The position numbers were made by a program, and so were the translations under genes. Below, one piece after another: positions 34,410-60,878 of a stretch of DNA of 64,000 bases. Each line of letters starts with the position of its first letter. The first letter of the stretch is position 1. Source of the stretch: Microbacterium sufflavum. GTDB taxonomy: Bacteria; Actinomycetota; Actinomycetes; Actinomycetales; Microbacteriaceae. The notes under the pieces were generated by a model that had not been told where the DNA came from, ran no database searches, and worked only from the letters and a program-made list of their open reading frames with translations. The stretch spans positions 1,054,001 through 1,118,000 of the forward strand of contig NZ_JAHWXK010000001.1 in NCBI RefSeq assembly GCF_023091155.1. Reading direction: 5' to 3'.

Positions 34410-34482
34410 TGGAGCCTAGGAGATTCGAACTCCTGACATCCTGCTTGCAAAGCAGGCGCTCTACCAACTGAGCTAAGGCCCC
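34410..34482 (-). tRNA. tRNA-Ala (TGC)
   Basis: 73-nt cloverleaf on the minus strand: acceptor GGGGCCT paired with AGGCTCC, D-arm AGCTCAGTTGGTAGAGC, anticodon loop CTTTGCAAG (anticodon TGC), T-loop GTTCGAATC. CCA is not encoded. Confidence 0.97.
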
Positions 34483-34507
34483 GTGAGGGATTTCTTGAAT
34501 TGAATGG

Positions 34508-34581
34508 TGGGGCTACCAGGACTTGAACCTGGGACCTCTTCATTATCAGTGAAGCGCTCTAACCGCCTGAGCTATAGCCCC
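34508..34581 (-). tRNA. tRNA-Ile (GAT)
   Basis: 74-nt cloverleaf on the minus strand: acceptor GGGGCTA, D-arm AGCTCAGGCGGTTAGAGC, anticodon loop CTGATAA (anticodon GAT), T-loop GTTCAAGTC. It lies 25 bp upstream of tRNA-Ala in the same direction, so both probably share a transcript. Confidence 0.97.
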
Positions 34582-45683: not shown

Positions 45684-45766
45684 GCGCGAGTGGCGGAATG
45701 GTAGACGCGCTGGCTTCAGGTGCCAGTGTCCGTATGGACGTGGGGGTTCAAGTCCCCCCTCGCGCA
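45684..45766 (+). tRNA. tRNA-Leu (CAG)
   Basis: 83-nt class II tRNA: acceptor GCGCGAG / CTCGCGC, anticodon loop CTTCAGG (anticodon CAG), long variable arm TGTCCGTATGGACG, T-loop GTTCAAGTC, discriminator A; CCA not encoded. It is divergent from the fhaA operon. Confidence 0.97.
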
Positions 45767-56720: not shown

Positions 56721-57899
56721 TCAGCTGAACAGGATGAGGACGTACACGGCGAAGGTCGCGAGGTGTGCGGCGCCGTGCATCGCCGTCACGCGCTTCGCGG
56801 AGAAGGTCGTGACCGACAGCAGCAGCGTGACGCCGAGCATCAGCAGGTTCGCGGGGGACTCGGCCAGCACCACCGTCTGCCCCGTGAGCATGCCGATCAC
56901 CAGCACCGCGGGGATCGTGAGCCCCACGGTCGACACGAGCGCGCCGTGGCAGAGGTTCGTGACGCGCTGCGCCTCACCGTTCAGTGCCGCCCGCACGGCC
57001 GTGATCGACTCGGGCAGGAACACGATGCCCGCGATCAGGAGCCCCGCGAGGGCCACGGGCGCCCCGACCCTGCCGAGACCGTCGTCGAGCAGCGCGGCCA
57101 TGTCGTGCGACAGCAGCACGATCGGCACCACCGTGACCACGAGCAGGAGCAGCCGCGTCACGACCTCGGTGCGATGCGCGGCGAGCACCTCCCGGATGCC
57201 GGGGCGCGGCTCCTCCGTACGAGCCGCGGTCCGCCGTCGCTTGTCGACCTCCGTGAAGTCCTCCGCCTGCGCGCCCATCTGCCGGAACAGGAAGAACGCG
57301 TACAGCGCGAGCGTCAGCACGATGATCGGGATCTCCTGCCCCACCGTGTACGCGCCGTCGTCGCCGATGAGCCCGGGCAGGGCGATCCCGAGCGCCACGA
57401 GCACCACCAGCATCGCCAGGTACGACGACGTGCCGGTGCGGTTGTGCGCCATCCCGCGGTGACGTAGCCCGCCCAGCAGCAGCGCGAGCCCGATCACGAG
57501 GTTCAGGATGATCATCGACACGGCCATCACCGAGTCGCGGGCGATCGTGGCGTGCTCGCCGGGACCGAGCATGACCGCGGAGATCAGGATCACCTCGATC
57601 AGCACGATCGACAGGGTGAGCACGAGCGAGCCATAGGGGTCGCCCAGCCGGTGCGCGAGGGCCTCCGCCTGCTTCACCACGCCGAACGCGCACACCAGGA
57701 TCACCGCGACGATGCCGACGAGCGCGACCACCAGCAGCGGACCGGGCACGGGCGGCGCGAGCAACGGGTGGGCGATCAGCAGCGCACCGAACGCACCCCA
57801 GCCCAGCCCCACGCGGACCACATCGACGGGGGTGACCAGCTGCCTGATCGACGGTCGGCTCATGGTCGGCTCCTCGCCGGTCGGCCTCTCCCTGGACAT
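56721..57899 (-). CDS. ChaA-type calcium/cation:proton antiporter
   Basis: 392-residue member of the CaCA superfamily, exchanging Ca2+ (or Na+/K+) for protons across the inner membrane. Eleven or so membrane helices. The two alpha repeats are visible: VKQAEALAHRLGDPYGSLVLTLSIVLIEVILI and VFLPESITAVRAALNGEAQRVTNLCHGALVSTVGLTIP, each with the conserved glutamate. I start it at ATG 57899, where a GAGGGAG ribosome site sits inside a hairpin right after the riboswitch-like element. A second start at 57863 (MSRPSIRQ) also has a good GAGGAG site. The riboswitch link suggests regulation by guanidine or a similar ligand. Confidence 0.9.
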   Translation of the reverse strand: MSRERPTGEEPTMSRPSIRQLVTPVDVVRVGLGWGAFGALLIAHPLLAPPVPGPLLVVALVGIVAVILVCAFGVVKQAEALAHRLGDPYGSLVLTLSIVLIEVILISAVMLGPGEHATIARDSVMAVSMIILNLVIGLALLLGGLRHRGMAHNRTGTSSYLAMLVVLVALGIALPGLIGDDGAYTVGQEIPIIVLTLALYAFFLFRQMGAQAEDFTEVDKRRRTAARTEEPRPGIREVLAAHRTEVVTRLLLLVVTVVPIVLLSHDMAALLDDGLGRVGAPVALAGLLIAGIVFLPESITAVRAALNGEAQRVTNLCHGALVSTVGLTIPAVLVIGMLTGQTVVLAESPANLLMLGVTLLLSVTTFSAKRVTAMHGAAHLATFAVYVLILFS

Positions 57900-57953
57900 G
57901 ACGACTCCCTCATGAGTCAGTCGTCGTGTGCGGGTACTGCTCCCTCGTCCGCC
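57900..57953 (-). ncRNA. Guanidine-III (ykkC-III)-like riboswitch, antiporter leader
   Basis: Read on the minus strand: GCGG, then ACGAGGGAGCAGTAC, then CCGC, then ACACGACGACTGACTC. GCGG/CCGC forms P1; the GGACGAGG and GTACCCG segments match the guanidine-III consensus (as I recall it from the Thermobifida fusca RNA); CAGT can pair with the downstream ACTG as the pseudoknot, extended by GAG/CTC. The 3' strand GACGACTGACTC can instead pair with GGGAGTCGTC, which contains the ribosome site of the antiporter gene. Ligand binding would therefore free translation. The motif identity is by eye. Confidence 0.72.
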
Positions 57954-58024
57954 GCCCCGGTGACCGGGGACACTCCCAGGGTAGCGGCGGAACCGCAACA
58001 GCACCTGTGCACGCGCGACCCGGG

Positions 58025-58055
58025 TTGGCCGGGCCTCCACGACCTCTGCTACGGT
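58025..58055 (+). promoter_or_regulatory. Promoter for the rightward riboswitch transcript
   Basis: TTGGCC (58025-58030), 19-bp spacer, TACGGT (58050-58055). TACGGT is also the -10 proposed at 63920. It is followed by a hairpin with a 7-bp stem (AGGTCCG / CGGACCT) just before the riboswitch core. Confidence 0.45.
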
Positions 58056-58079
58056 GGCCGCAGGTCCGAGTTCCGGACC

Positions 58080-58142
58080 TGCGGACGAGGGCGCAGTACC
58101 CGCAAAGCGACAAGACTGACCATGAAGGTCGTCTCGTGTCGC
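58080..58142 (+). ncRNA. Guanidine-III (ykkC-III)-like riboswitch, rightward leader
   Basis: Core TGCGGACGAGGGCGCAGTAC then CCGC, AAAGC, GACAAGACTGACC. GCGG/CCGC forms P1; GACAAGAC matches the guanidine-III 3' segment exactly; CAGT pairs with ACTG. A competing hairpin runs from CGACA (58108) to TGTCG (58142) with inner stems GAC/GTC and ACC/GGT, enclosing an ATG (58122). A 22-bp core is repeated (one mismatch) in inverted orientation 130 bp to the left. It leads to the small membrane protein gene at 58251 and the cytochrome b gene. Confidence 0.75.
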
Positions 58143-58250
58143 TTCTTGCCGGTGGAACCGTCCCCGCCTCCGCTTCGCCGCACACCGCGACCCTCTTGGC
58201 GCCGCGCTCTCCCGCCGACGTGCCTCCGGCACACAGCGAAGGGAGACTCC

Positions 58251-58508
58251 GTGGACGCGCTCTTCGGATCCATCATCGGCGTGATCATCCTCCTCGTCAT
58301 CCTTGGGATCTCGCGGGCGTTCGCACGCGGATACCGCCACGGGGTGCGCTACGACGATCTGACGGTCGACCGGCTGCATGCCCTGACGGAGGGCGATCTC
58401 GCGGCGCTCGAGACGCGCGACGTGGACGCGTGGCTACGCCTGCGCGCCCTGGAGCGGCGCATGAGCGGCCTGCGCCGCCGGGCCGCCGAGCTCCGGGCCG
58501 ACCGCTGA
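58251..58508 (+). CDS. 85-residue membrane-anchored protein
   Basis: GTG 58251 behind an AAGGGAG site. One N-terminal helix (ALFGSIIGVIILLVILGISRAF) and a charged cytoplasmic part with LTEGDLAALETRDVDAWLRLRALERRMSG, probably coiled. No known domain. An in-frame ATG at 58122 directly after the riboswitch would add a proline/arginine-rich leader that does not look like protein, so I reject it. It lies 62 bp before the cytochrome b gene and shares its transcript. Confidence 0.75.
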   Translation: MDALFGSIIGVIILLVILGISRAFARGYRHGVRYDDLTVDRLHALTEGDLAALETRDVDAWLRLRALERRMSGLRRRAAELRADR

Positions 58509-58570
58509 CGCCCGCCCGCCCCCTTCTCCTTCCCCCGCTCCCGCTCACCTGACCACCCGAAGAGGACCCC

Positions 58571-60280
58571 ATGGCCACGACGCGCACTCGCGACCAGGCA
58601 GACCACGACACCTCCCGACGACCCCTCGGAGGCCGTTTCGTCGGTTCCGCCGCCAACTACCTCGACGAGCGCACCAGCATCTCCGGACTGATGAAGGAGC
58701 TGGGGCGCAAGGTGTTCCCCGACCACTGGTCGTTCATGCTGGGCGAGATCGCCCTGTGGGCGTTCGTCGTGGTGTTCATCACGGGCACGTTCCTCACGTT
58801 CTTCTTCCAGGCGTCGATGGTCCCCACGCACTACACCGGTGCGTACGCCCCGATGCGCGGCATGGAGATGACGGCCGCGTTCGACTCGGCCCTGCGGATC
58901 TCGTTCGACATCCGCGGTGGGCTGCTCGTGCGGCAGATGCACCACTGGGCGGCGTTGGTGTTCGTCGCCGGGATCGGCCTGCACATGCTGCGGGTGTTCT
59001 TCACCGGTGCGTTCCGCAAGCCGCGCGAGCTGAACTGGGTGATCGGCTTCGTGCTGTTCATCCTGGCGATGGCCGAGGGCTTCACCGGTTATTCCCTGCC
59101 CGACGACCTGCTCTCGGGCAACGGTCTGCGCATCATCGACGGCATGATCAAGGGCCTGCCCCTGATCGGCACCTGGACCTCGTTCCTCCTCTTCGGCGGC
59201 GAGTTCCCCGGCACCGACATCATCGGACGGCTCTACACGCTGCACATCTTGATCCTGCCGATGCTCGTCATCGCGCTGATCGCCCTTCACCTGATCCTGA
59301 TGATCGTGAACAAGCACACGCAGTTCGCCGGCCCCGGCCGCACGAACGACAACGTCGTGGGCTACCCGATCATGCCGGTCTACGCGGCGAAGATGGGCGG
59401 GTTCTTCTTCCTCGTGTTCGGCGTGATCGCGCTGCTGGGCACCTTCTTCCAGATCCTGCCGTTCTGGGTGTATGGGCCGTACGACCCCTCGCCCATCTCG
59501 GCGGGCACGCAGCCGGACTGGTACATCGGCTTCGCGGACGGTGCGCTGCGCCTCGCCCCGCCGAACTGGGACGTGGTGCTGTTCGACCGCACCTGGTCGT
59601 TCGGCATCATCGTGCCGGTGGCCGTGATGGGGCTGTTCATCCTCACCGTGCTGTTCTATCCGTTCATCGAGGCGTGGGTCACGGGCGACAAGCGCGAGCA
59701 CCACATCGCCGAACGACCGCGCAACGCGGCCACGCGCACGGCCATCGGTGTCGCGGGCGTCCTCTTCTATGCGGTGCTGTGGGCGGCGGCGTCGTCCGAC
59801 CTCATCGCCACGCACTTCATGCTCACGATGGAGGGCGTGATCCACACACTCCAGGCGCTGCTGATCCTCGGTCCCGTGCTCGGGTACGTCCTGACGAAGC
59901 GGATCTGCCTGGCGCTGCAGAAGAAGGACCGCGAGATCGTGCTGCACGGCTTCGAGACGGGTCGCATCGTGCGACTGCCCGGCGGCGAGTTCGTCGAGGT
60001 GCACCAGCCCGTCGACGAGTACGAGCGCTGGAAACTCATCGACGTGGAGTCGTATCAGCCGCTGGTCGTGCGGCCGAACGCGAAGGGGCGCATTCCGTGG
60101 CATCAGAACCTGCGCGCCGCGGTGTCGCGGTGGTTCTTCGAGGACAGGCTGCTGCCGCTCACCAGGGCTGAGGTGCACGCGGCCGACAGCGCCCACGGGT
60201 CGCACGCGGCGGTGGAGGCTCCGGACACGGACGGCACCGCGGGAGACGGCCCGGAGCATGGCGCACAGACCGACCGTTGA
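58571..60280 (+). CDS. Cytochrome b (QcrB paralogue)
   Basis: 569-residue cytochrome b of the menaquinol:cytochrome c reductase type. Haem ligands are in LLVRQMHHWAALVFVAGIGLHMLR and YTLHILILPMLVIALIALHL; the Qo-site motif is PDWY (AGTQPDWYIGF). About nine membrane helices, then a long cytoplasmic tail typical of actinobacterial QcrB. Neither qcrA nor qcrC is adjacent, so this is probably a second copy, separate from the main bc1-aa3 cluster. Strong ATG start behind GAAGAGGA. It overlaps the next gene by 23 bp. Confidence 0.9.
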   Translation: MATTRTRDQADHDTSRRPLGGRFVGSAANYLDERTSISGLMKELGRKVFPDHWSFMLGEIALWAFVVVFITGTFLTFFFQASMVPTHYTGAYAPMRGMEMTAAFDSALRISFDIRGGLLVRQMHHWAALVFVAGIGLHMLRVFFTGAFRKPRELNWVIGFVLFILAMAEGFTGYSLPDDLLSGNGLRIIDGMIKGLPLIGTWTSFLLFGGEFPGTDIIGRLYTLHILILPMLVIALIALHLILMIVNKHTQFAGPGRTNDNVVGYPIMPVYAAKMGGFFFLVFGVIALLGTFFQILPFWVYGPYDPSPISAGTQPDWYIGFADGALRLAPPNWDVVLFDRTWSFGIIVPVAVMGLFILTVLFYPFIEAWVTGDKREHHIAERPRNAATRTAIGVAGVLFYAVLWAAASSDLIATHFMLTMEGVIHTLQALLILGPVLGYVLTKRICLALQKKDREIVLHGFETGRIVRLPGGEFVEVHQPVDEYERWKLIDVESYQPLVVRPNAKGRIPWHQNLRAAVSRWFFEDRLLPLTRAEVHAADSAHGSHAAVEAPDTDGTAGDGPEHGAQTDR

Positions 60281-60878
60281 CGCAGGCAGGCTCCGCGGGG
60301 TGCGGGTGGCCCTCGGCGTGGGGGTGGTCGTGGTCGCGTTCCTCGTCGCTGGAACACCGGCGGCCCTGGGGGCGTTCGCCGTCGTGGTCGGGTTCGGCGC
60401 GGTCCGCCGTGCCCGGCGCCGCCCGGAGCGACTACCCCGCCTGACGTTCACGTTCGCCGTGGTCGATGTCGGCGGCGACGGCGCCCCGTGCCTGCTGCTG
60501 TCTCTGCCGCCCGACGCGGACGAGACCGTGGCGGAGGTGCTGCGTGCGCACGGGTGGAGCACCCTGGAGCCGCCCGTCAACGGTCCGGTCGCACCGGTGC
60601 GGCGGGTGGGCGTGGAGTTCCGCGGCGACGACGGCCTGCGGCTGCGCGACCTCGGGGTGCCCGGGCCCGCCTACGCCGAGGCGATGCGCCGGGGGGCCGT
60701 GCCGGGCGGGTGGGGTGCGGCCGCCGAGCGGACGGGGTGGGTGCTGCTGCTCGCGGTGCCGGAGCAGGCGTGGCCGCTCGACCCCGACCGCACAGTGCGC
60801 TCGCCGGTGCTCGGCGCGTACGGGTTGCTGCATGGCTCCCGGGCGGGAGGTTCCCCCGCGGGATCGGTCAGACGGTGA
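60258..60878 (+). CDS. Hypothetical membrane protein following cytochrome b
   Basis: 206 residues. A hydrophobic segment at about 15-48 (VRVALGVGVVVVAFLVAGTP, then a second short one) ends in a basic RRARRRPER. The C-terminal soluble domain begins LTFTFAVVDVGGDGAPCLLL. No recognised domain. It starts inside the 3' end of the cytochrome b gene, suggesting coupling, and its 3' end overlaps the opposite-strand methyltransferase gene by 11 bp. The codon pattern is strongly GC3-rich like its neighbours. Confidence 0.65.
   Translation: MAHRPTVDAGRLRGVRVALGVGVVVVAFLVAGTPAALGAFAVVVGFGAVRRARRRPERLPRLTFTFAVVDVGGDGAPCLLLSLPPDADETVAEVLRAHGWSTLEPPVNGPVAPVRRVGVEFRGDDGLRLRDLGVPGPAYAEAMRRGAVPGGWGAAAERTGWVLLLAVPEQAWPLDPDRTVRSPVLGAYGLLHGSRAGGSPAGSVRR

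Follow-up and report, generated by a model that had tools for sequence, protein, structure and literature searches.

In the actinobacterium Microbacterium sufflavum, two divergent guanidine-III (ykkC-III) riboswitch aptamers lie back to back in the spacer between a chaA-like antiporter gene and a second cytochrome b gene, here termed qcrB2. The window analyzed is a stretch of 64,000 nucleotides (nt) (RefSeq assembly GCF_023091155.1, contig NZ_JAHWXK010000001.1, positions 1,054,001 to 1,118,000 of the forward strand), to which all unlabeled coordinates refer; genomes and loci are cited by our own G and L numbers, the window belonging to genome G000. On the minus strand, the chaA-like gene (56721..57863) encodes a CaCA cation/proton antiporter of 380 amino acids that matches PF01699 in two stretches (76.7 bits versus a threshold of 24.9). 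The plus strand carries an open reading frame (ORF) of 85 amino acids with its own Shine-Dalgarno-like sequence and, by eye, an N-terminal hydrophobic stretch (58251..58508), followed by qcrB2 for a second cytochrome b subunit of the bc1 complex (58571..60280; NF050120, 729.4 bits versus a cut-off of 500) and by an ORF of 206 amino acids with no assigned function (60258..60878).

The first-pass annotation had reported a 22-base core present as an inverted pair with one mismatch, and precisely this was found: positions 58082-58103 read CGGACGAGGGCGCAGTACCCGC, the reverse complement of 57930-57951 reads CGGACGAGGGAGCAGTACCCGC, and a repeat search returned a 32-nt inverted pair around them (57929-57960 and 58073-58104) that is 88% complementary and spaced by 112 nt. 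The cores are followed on their 3' sides, again as described, by GACAAGAC-TG on the plus strand and GACGAC-TG on the minus strand. The plus copy (58059..58123), with an upstream P0 hairpin, the P1 stem and a CAGT/ACTG pseudoknot, scores 47.1 bits against RF01763 (E = 1.2e-6 for 64 kb), above the gathering cut-off of 36. The minus copy (57911..57974) is a variant whose short linker recurs in other genomes, and it scores 34.4 bits, so that the covariance model places the plus strand above the cut-off and the minus strand just below it. These are the best guanidine-III matches of the whole genome, the third having an E-value of 0.14. The two divergent aptamers are thus confirmed as an observation, and we know of no earlier case of such an arrangement. 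The hairpins 5' of the cores likewise keep their stems while differing in sequence between the copies, as judged from the covariance-model alignments. Of the promoter-like GCTAC stretches that had been proposed, the sequences GCTACCCT and GCTACGGT are indeed present 5' of the copies, while a sigma-70 consensus scan found no promoter there. Three simpler accounts were set aside. A chance inverted repeat is ruled out by the Rfam E-values and by conservation, and a transcription terminator as expression platform was rejected, a scan around the switches having found no terminator-like site. An inverted duplication of one copy within the genome is ruled out because the copies are different leader types, the minus type preceding gdx in G647 and G624 and the plus type preceding qcrB2 in six other genomes.

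The structural assignment was examined by covariation across related leaders. From 70 leaders collected in this and related genomes, 58 were retained in alignment A2 after 12 near-copies or leaders with a doubtful start codon had been dropped by hand, and the consensus structure was written down after the alignment had been viewed. On this basis, P1 and the pseudoknot gave a covariation score of 0.165, compared with 0.045 +/- 0.009 for shuffled alignments, and none of 500 shuffles scored as high; together with the model matches, this bears out the annotated guanidine-III identity, including both structural elements. The outer pair of P1 is C-G in 39 rows and G-C in 13, with six rows set aside for gaps. 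Five of the seven pseudoknot pairs vary on both sides, and the outer ones often fail to form (in 46 of 57 rows and in 18 of 58). Paired cells amount to 88.8% in the true register and 17.8-46.1% when the strands are slid. The nucleotides of the binding core, namely the CG dimer with its flanking A and the G of GUAC, taken as G17, form invariant columns in A2, both copies of the window included; their roles are those given in the available text of PMC7736828, and the numbering on the present sequences is our own. Both RNAs would be expected to bind guanidine, as judged from sequence. The plus leader folds better than its shuffles (z = -4.96). The short linker of the minus copy is found in eight other genomes of the genus (G512, G621, G501, G634, G660, G592, G647 and G624), which makes simple decay of this copy unlikely, and the G660 variant scores 36.1 bits against RF01763, over the cut-off. 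Two weak guanidine-III matches, in G453 (28.9 bits) and G696 (27.7 bits), do not have the core pattern.

Folding and comparison with other leaders (12 further natural leader segments for the plus copy) suggest how the two switches might act. On the plus strand, an alternative hairpin GAC-U-GACC / GGUC-GUC (58114..58133) includes the pseudoknot strand in its 5' arm and encloses the Shine-Dalgarno-like motif GAAGG (58124-58128); a GTG start-like codon 7 nt past this motif (58136..58138) opens a leader ORF, and its counterpart in G660 is an ATG that begins a lipoprotein. On the minus strand, the hairpin GAC-U-GACUC / GAGUC-GUC (57900..57922) holds GAGGGAG (57905-57911), and an ATG (57897..57899) occupies the position at which gdx begins in G647; it shares the reading frame of chaA, whose start at 57863 lies 12 codons further on. 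The two hairpins differ by compensating changes (GACC/GGUC versus GACUC/GAGUC), and further versions occur in related leaders. Across 56 distinct leader segments, the competing Shine-Dalgarno hairpin had a mean z of -1.79, with 41 segments below -1, and forcing the pseudoknot strand to remain unpaired in a simple model partly freed the minus Shine-Dalgarno sequence. In the proposed mechanism, each divergent mRNA would begin with a guanidine-III aptamer. When guanidine is absent, the 3' pseudoknot strand (GACUG...) would pair downstream into a hairpin that encloses the Shine-Dalgarno sequence, and on the plus side the extended helix would also cover the first start codon. When guanidine is present, the same strand would be captured by the aptamer pseudoknot, the hairpin would open and translation could begin. 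This agrees with the translational switching stated for guanidine-III in the part of PMC12186494 available. The minus switch would turn on the ChaA-like CaCA antiporter, probably a guanidinium exporter replacing Gdx, and the plus switch would turn on qcrB2 together with the 85- and 206-amino-acid ORFs; QcrB2 may then keep the bc1 complex running under guanidine.

The window protein is related to ChaA but scores 180.6 bits against the NF007895 equivalog for ChaA proper, missing the cut-off of 505, also falls below the cut-off of TIGR00846 (caca2), and resembles no solved structure by sequence at E <= 0.001. Among 366 genomes of the genus, 87 carry chaA (E <= 1e-50). A guanidine-II match (E <= 0.01; 54 over the cut-off) precedes 70 of these 87 genes, on the same strand and at a distance of at most 700 nt, and seven have the guanidine-III variant directly upstream, so that 77 follow a guanidine-aptamer match of some kind. 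Beyond the genus, two hairpins with ACGR loops, resembling guanidine-II, were found upstream in 63 of 80 actinomycete chaA loci, these being the best 80 of 211 relatives, versus 2 of 1363 control windows; some of the 63 look weak (e.g., two Corynebacterium loci), and a guanidine-III core was found upstream in one of the 80. When Rfam was applied to 17 of the 80, guanidine-II reached the cut-off before chaA in eight, all of them among the 12 with a double hairpin, and in none of the five without one; the eight include records from Arthrobacter, Brevibacterium, Kocuria, Glutamicibacter and Cellulomonas. A first set from the family comprised 11 chaA loci, representing 10 genes because of the overlap between L050 and L052; seven of the loci (six genes) reached the guanidine-II cut-off, two more matched below it, and L042 and L051 gave no guanidine-II match. 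The two genomes of the species also share, at comparable positions (G000:C1:916515-916560 and G512:C1:918237-918282), a guanidine-II match of 29.8 bits that lies below the cut-off and may be due to chance.

For the most part, chaA and Gdx do not occur in the same genome. No SMR protein and no Gdx was found in the genome of the window. Among 198 genomes, 46 carry chaA, and Gdx was found in 2 of these 46 versus 126 of the 152 genomes without chaA (Fisher p = 3e-23), a statistic that ignores shared ancestry and assumes the 198 genomes to lie within the 227 surveyed for Gdx, of which the negative ones are listed in part. The two exceptions, G087 and G485, have no detectable aptamer on their chaA; G702, outside the 198, also carries both genes. 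Guanidine-III itself is common in the genus (at E <= 0.001 it was matched in 235 of the 366 genomes, and in 229 the match exceeds the cut-off), and the leaders inspected precede gdx, except for the chaA, qcrB2 and lipoprotein cases; this assignment to gdx was read from 14 loci with a plus-strand switch among 30 loci, with further leaders judged by eye. In Pseudarthrobacter albicanus (L198 2228-2309, minus strand), a gdx gene with a guanidine-III core lies about 1.8 kb from a chaA with a guanidine-II-like double hairpin, a further instance in which the two are close neighbors. That ChaA exports guanidinium is, from the aptamer regulation and the exclusion with Gdx, likely but unproven, and genomes with neither gene may possess a further guanidine exporter or none.

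Layouts in related genomes suggest how the pair arose. In G647 and G624, both switches stand back to back, positioned as in the window, and the order is qcrB2 <- guanidine-III | guanidine-III variant -> gdx1-gdx2 -> guanidine-II -> chaA, gdx and chaA thus being adjacent; on the plus-type side, an 85-amino-acid ORF again lies between aptamer and qcrB2. The gdx pair of G647 consists of two SMR genes whose best NCBIfam match is SugE, below the cut-off, and the guanidine-II matches before chaA are weak (31.2 bits in G647 and 26.0 bits in G624). The minus leader of the window ends in ATG-TCC like the gdx start of G647, after which the sequence can be aligned with the guanidine-II tail before the G647 chaA. 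Because G647 and G624 retain the fuller layout, the minus switch is probably the former leader of the gdx pair, and in the most economical scenario deletion of gdx1-gdx2 together with most of the guanidine-II switch would have placed chaA behind it; this order of events is what we infer from the layouts. The short-linker leader lies directly before chaA in G512, G621, G501, G634, G660 and G592 as well. In G512, a genome of the same species, the stretch 58022..60861, holding the plus aptamer, the 85-amino-acid ORF, qcrB2 and nearly all of the 206-amino-acid ORF, is missing at the same place and replaced by 18 nt between flanks that are 98-99% identical; the qcrB2 module has therefore been gained or lost within the species. 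The window pair is probably a remnant of a larger guanidine gene cluster. In G077, G479, G597 and G598, qcrB2 with guanidine-III adjoins chaA with guanidine-II, and a second guanidine-II lies between them.

Several further guanidine switches were seen in these genomes. The intervening guanidine-II of G077 and G479 (L082 4782-4825 and L083 10297-10341) precedes, by eye, a small membrane-like ORF, and in G597, G598, G590 and G591, too, chaA has a second guanidine-II match lying a few hundred nt upstream. An additional guanidine-III upstream of a lipoprotein-like gene is present in G512, G501, G660 and G624 (L160 2382, L161 2478, L162 2251 and L163 2660, all on the minus strand). Against the F510_1955 model, the G660 protein passes and that of G512 falls just under (168.7 versus 175), while those of G501 and G624 look similar on inspection. 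The lipoprotein-like protein of G660 begins at the start codon directly behind this switch. Elsewhere in the window, Rfam recognized three tRNA genes, at 34410-34581 (minus) and 45684-45766 (plus).

The qcrB2 gene is an additional copy. The other qcrB of the genome lies on another contig and is 82% identical to it; two or three QcrB matches, fragments among them, were recorded in 21 of the 198 genomes, and follow-up was confined to the top-scoring extra copies, in G000, G077 and G479, the latter two being the only genomes besides that of the window with QcrB matches above 1100 bits. The seven QcrB2 proteins found cluster in a single clade, which is divided into two groups and separate from 28 other QcrB. 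The histidines common to QcrB are kept in QcrB2, and which of them bind haem is our assumption. At fourteen positions, the six full-length QcrB2 share a residue that is missing, or almost so, from the 28 others (12 positions when the contig-cut G624 sequence is added). These distinguishing positions were also considered as resistance residues and gave no clear pattern; guanidine tolerance of QcrB2 is a guess. A guanidine-III switch lies upstream of all seven qcrB2 genes, four of which have no 85-amino-acid ORF, while a pattern search found no guanidine-III core in the 28 other qcrB loci. The 85-amino-acid ORF itself, which has no Pfam or NCBIfam match, recurs among the loci retrieved in G647 and G624, again between the aptamer and qcrB2. 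Behind qcrB2, five of the six other loci have a relative of the 206-amino-acid ORF; in the remaining one, G624, the contig stops within qcrB2. Since neither qcrC nor qcrA was found among the annotated neighbors in the window, QcrB2 would be expected to enter the usual bc1 complex as an exchange subunit. A plasmid search gave five records, and in the only one from Microbacterium, a different member of the genus, the qcrB relative stood behind genes for oxidase subunit III, a c-type cytochrome and a Rieske protein, which is the usual operon. The leader ORF overlaps the 85-amino-acid ORF in G000, G647 and G624; in G077, G479, G597 and G598, closely related loci with a single ORF length, the ORF opened by the GTG runs for 59 codons and stops 11 nt into qcrB2, and coupling of the leader ORF to qcrB2 is a possibility.

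Taken together, these results make it fairly probable that the locus is a divergent, guanidine-induced unit in which a ChaA-like antiporter has taken the place of Gdx and a second cytochrome b is co-induced. However, a number of observations weigh against this interpretation. The minus aptamer falls 1.6 bits short of the RF01763 cut-off (E = 2e-5 in a 701-base search) and was not listed at that cut-off in the scan of the 64-kb window; it does not have the two As of the linker AAGAC found in 58 of 64 distinct cores, a loss common to its variant group, and its leader folds like shuffled sequence (z = -0.19). Seven of the 56 leader segments gave a z above 0 for the competing hairpin. Forcing the pseudoknot strand unpaired barely altered the plus Shine-Dalgarno sequence, so that the simple folding model alone is no proof of a switch, which makes the interpretation slightly less secure. 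The end of the plus switch is separated by about 130 nt from the 85-amino-acid ORF and by about 450 nt from qcrB2, and a leader ORF of no obvious product begins at the first start codon past the switch; control of qcrB2 thus rests on position. The seven qcrB2 loci are a non-random sample, the QcrB search having contributed three of them and the neighborhood of chaA the other four. Database annotation makes the ChaA relatives Na+/K+/Ca2+ antiporters, and none is known to us to transport guanidinium. No aptamer was found upstream of 10 of the 87 chaA genes of the genus; eight of these ten are either fragments or copies with an identity of about 50%, and the other two belong to G485 and G033. Finally, the exclusion between chaA and Gdx is not strict, since G647 and G624 carry both, and neither was found in 26 of the 198 genomes.

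Alternative explanations address the individual parts of this interpretation. With respect to the transported substrate, ChaA could be a conventional Na+/K+/Ca2+-proton antiporter that does not carry guanidinium and whose induction by guanidine would serve to restore ion or pH balance, as the family annotation suggests; the near-exclusion with Gdx and the shared gdx cluster of G647 and G624 fit functional substitution, and we regard this explanation as rather unlikely. Somewhat less likely still is that only the plus copy is a working switch, the minus copy being a decaying relic of a gdx leader that supplies chaA with a promoter and a ribosome-binding site. Its missing linker nucleotides, sub-cut-off score and poor fold would agree with decay, as would the absence of a detectable gdx, its presumed original gene, from the genome; yet the same short linker precedes intact gdx pairs in G647 and G624 and lies directly before chaA in seven genomes, and P1, the pocket nucleotides, the pseudoknot and the Shine-Dalgarno hairpin have been kept though some surrounding letters changed. 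The constancy of the linker change within a group of otherwise constant aptamers could also mean that the variant senses another guanidine-like ligand (e.g., methylguanidine), the two switches reporting two compounds, but the binding-core nucleotides, with the roles stated in the accessible portion of PMC7736828, are retained, and the variant precedes gdx in G647 and G624, which leaves this idea improbable. On the plus side, the leader ORF that starts directly past the switch, and the presence of the module in G000 but not at the same place in G512, would be consistent with a switch that controls only the leader ORF or the 85-amino-acid ORF, qcrB2 having been inserted there by chance. The occurrence of guanidine-III before qcrB2 in seven of seven genomes, including the four without the 85-amino-acid ORF, and its absence from the 28 other qcrB loci by pattern search speak against this explanation, which appears quite unlikely. 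A wider proposal builds on the divergent guanidine-induced reading, namely that ChaA-like CaCA proteins are a second, non-SMR family of guanidinium exporters replacing Gdx in many actinomycetes, that in part of these organisms a guanidine-tolerant cytochrome b isoform is brought into use as well, and that the short-linker aptamer is a functional variant; it is offered tentatively, as conceivable but falling somewhat short of an even chance.

The gene associations represent a larger result than the aptamer pair itself. The apparent control of chaA and qcrB2, in place of the usual guanidine exporter, by guanidine switches suggests new guanidine-defence genes. The clear new candidate is chaA, with its guanidine-II-like hairpins in 63 of 80 actinomycete loci and guanidine-III here. 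Control of a second cytochrome b by such a switch would connect guanidine with respiration and bears on the natural effect of this compound on bacteria; if true, guanidine would be a natural respiratory stress for some of these organisms. In addition, the exchange of riboswitch class on one gene through loss of the gene between would constitute a clean case of leader capture. A literature search, with the original guanidine-II and guanidine-III gene lists outside its scope, found no paper connecting a guanidine switch with chaA, qcrB, cation exchangers or cytochrome bc1; the portions available of PMC12186494, PMC7266159, PMC8632094 and PMC9971707 draw no such connection. In the excerpt of PMC13064478, which applies an everted-vesicle dequenching assay to Gdx, chaA appears solely among the genes deleted from a test strain.

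With regard to known systems, the present aptamers share with guanidine-III (RF01763) the aptamer sequence, P0, P1, the pseudoknot and a platform around the Shine-Dalgarno sequence, and the class is described as mainly actinobacterial in the available text of PMC12186494; they differ in forming a divergent pair in one spacer, in preceding chaA and qcrB2 rather than gdx, and in the minus linker, which is two nucleotides shorter. Tandem riboswitches likewise place several aptamers in one region, whereas here these occupy opposite strands and serve two genes; Table 3 of PMC9481103, a source available in part, places guanidine-III among the classes without a tandem arrangement. Guanidine-II (mini-ykkC, RF01068) precedes the same chaA gene in most relatives examined, while before the window chaA it was not found save for the alignable tail, the class there having been exchanged for guanidine-III. 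The SMR guanidinium exporters of the Gdx (SugE) type share the switch class within the genus and probably the task, although their protein family is unrelated to ChaA and none was found in the genome of the window. Compared with ChaA and the calcium-proton exchangers of the CaCA family, the window protein has the PF01699 match in two stretches but lies below the curated ChaA and caca2 cut-offs and is encoded behind a guanidine aptamer. Similarly, QcrB2 resembles actinobacterial QcrB, the cytochrome b of the bc1 complex, in its NF050120 match and shared histidines, but forms a separate clade, and its gene, with no qcrC or qcrA beside it in the window, adjoins chaA and lies behind a guanidine-III switch.
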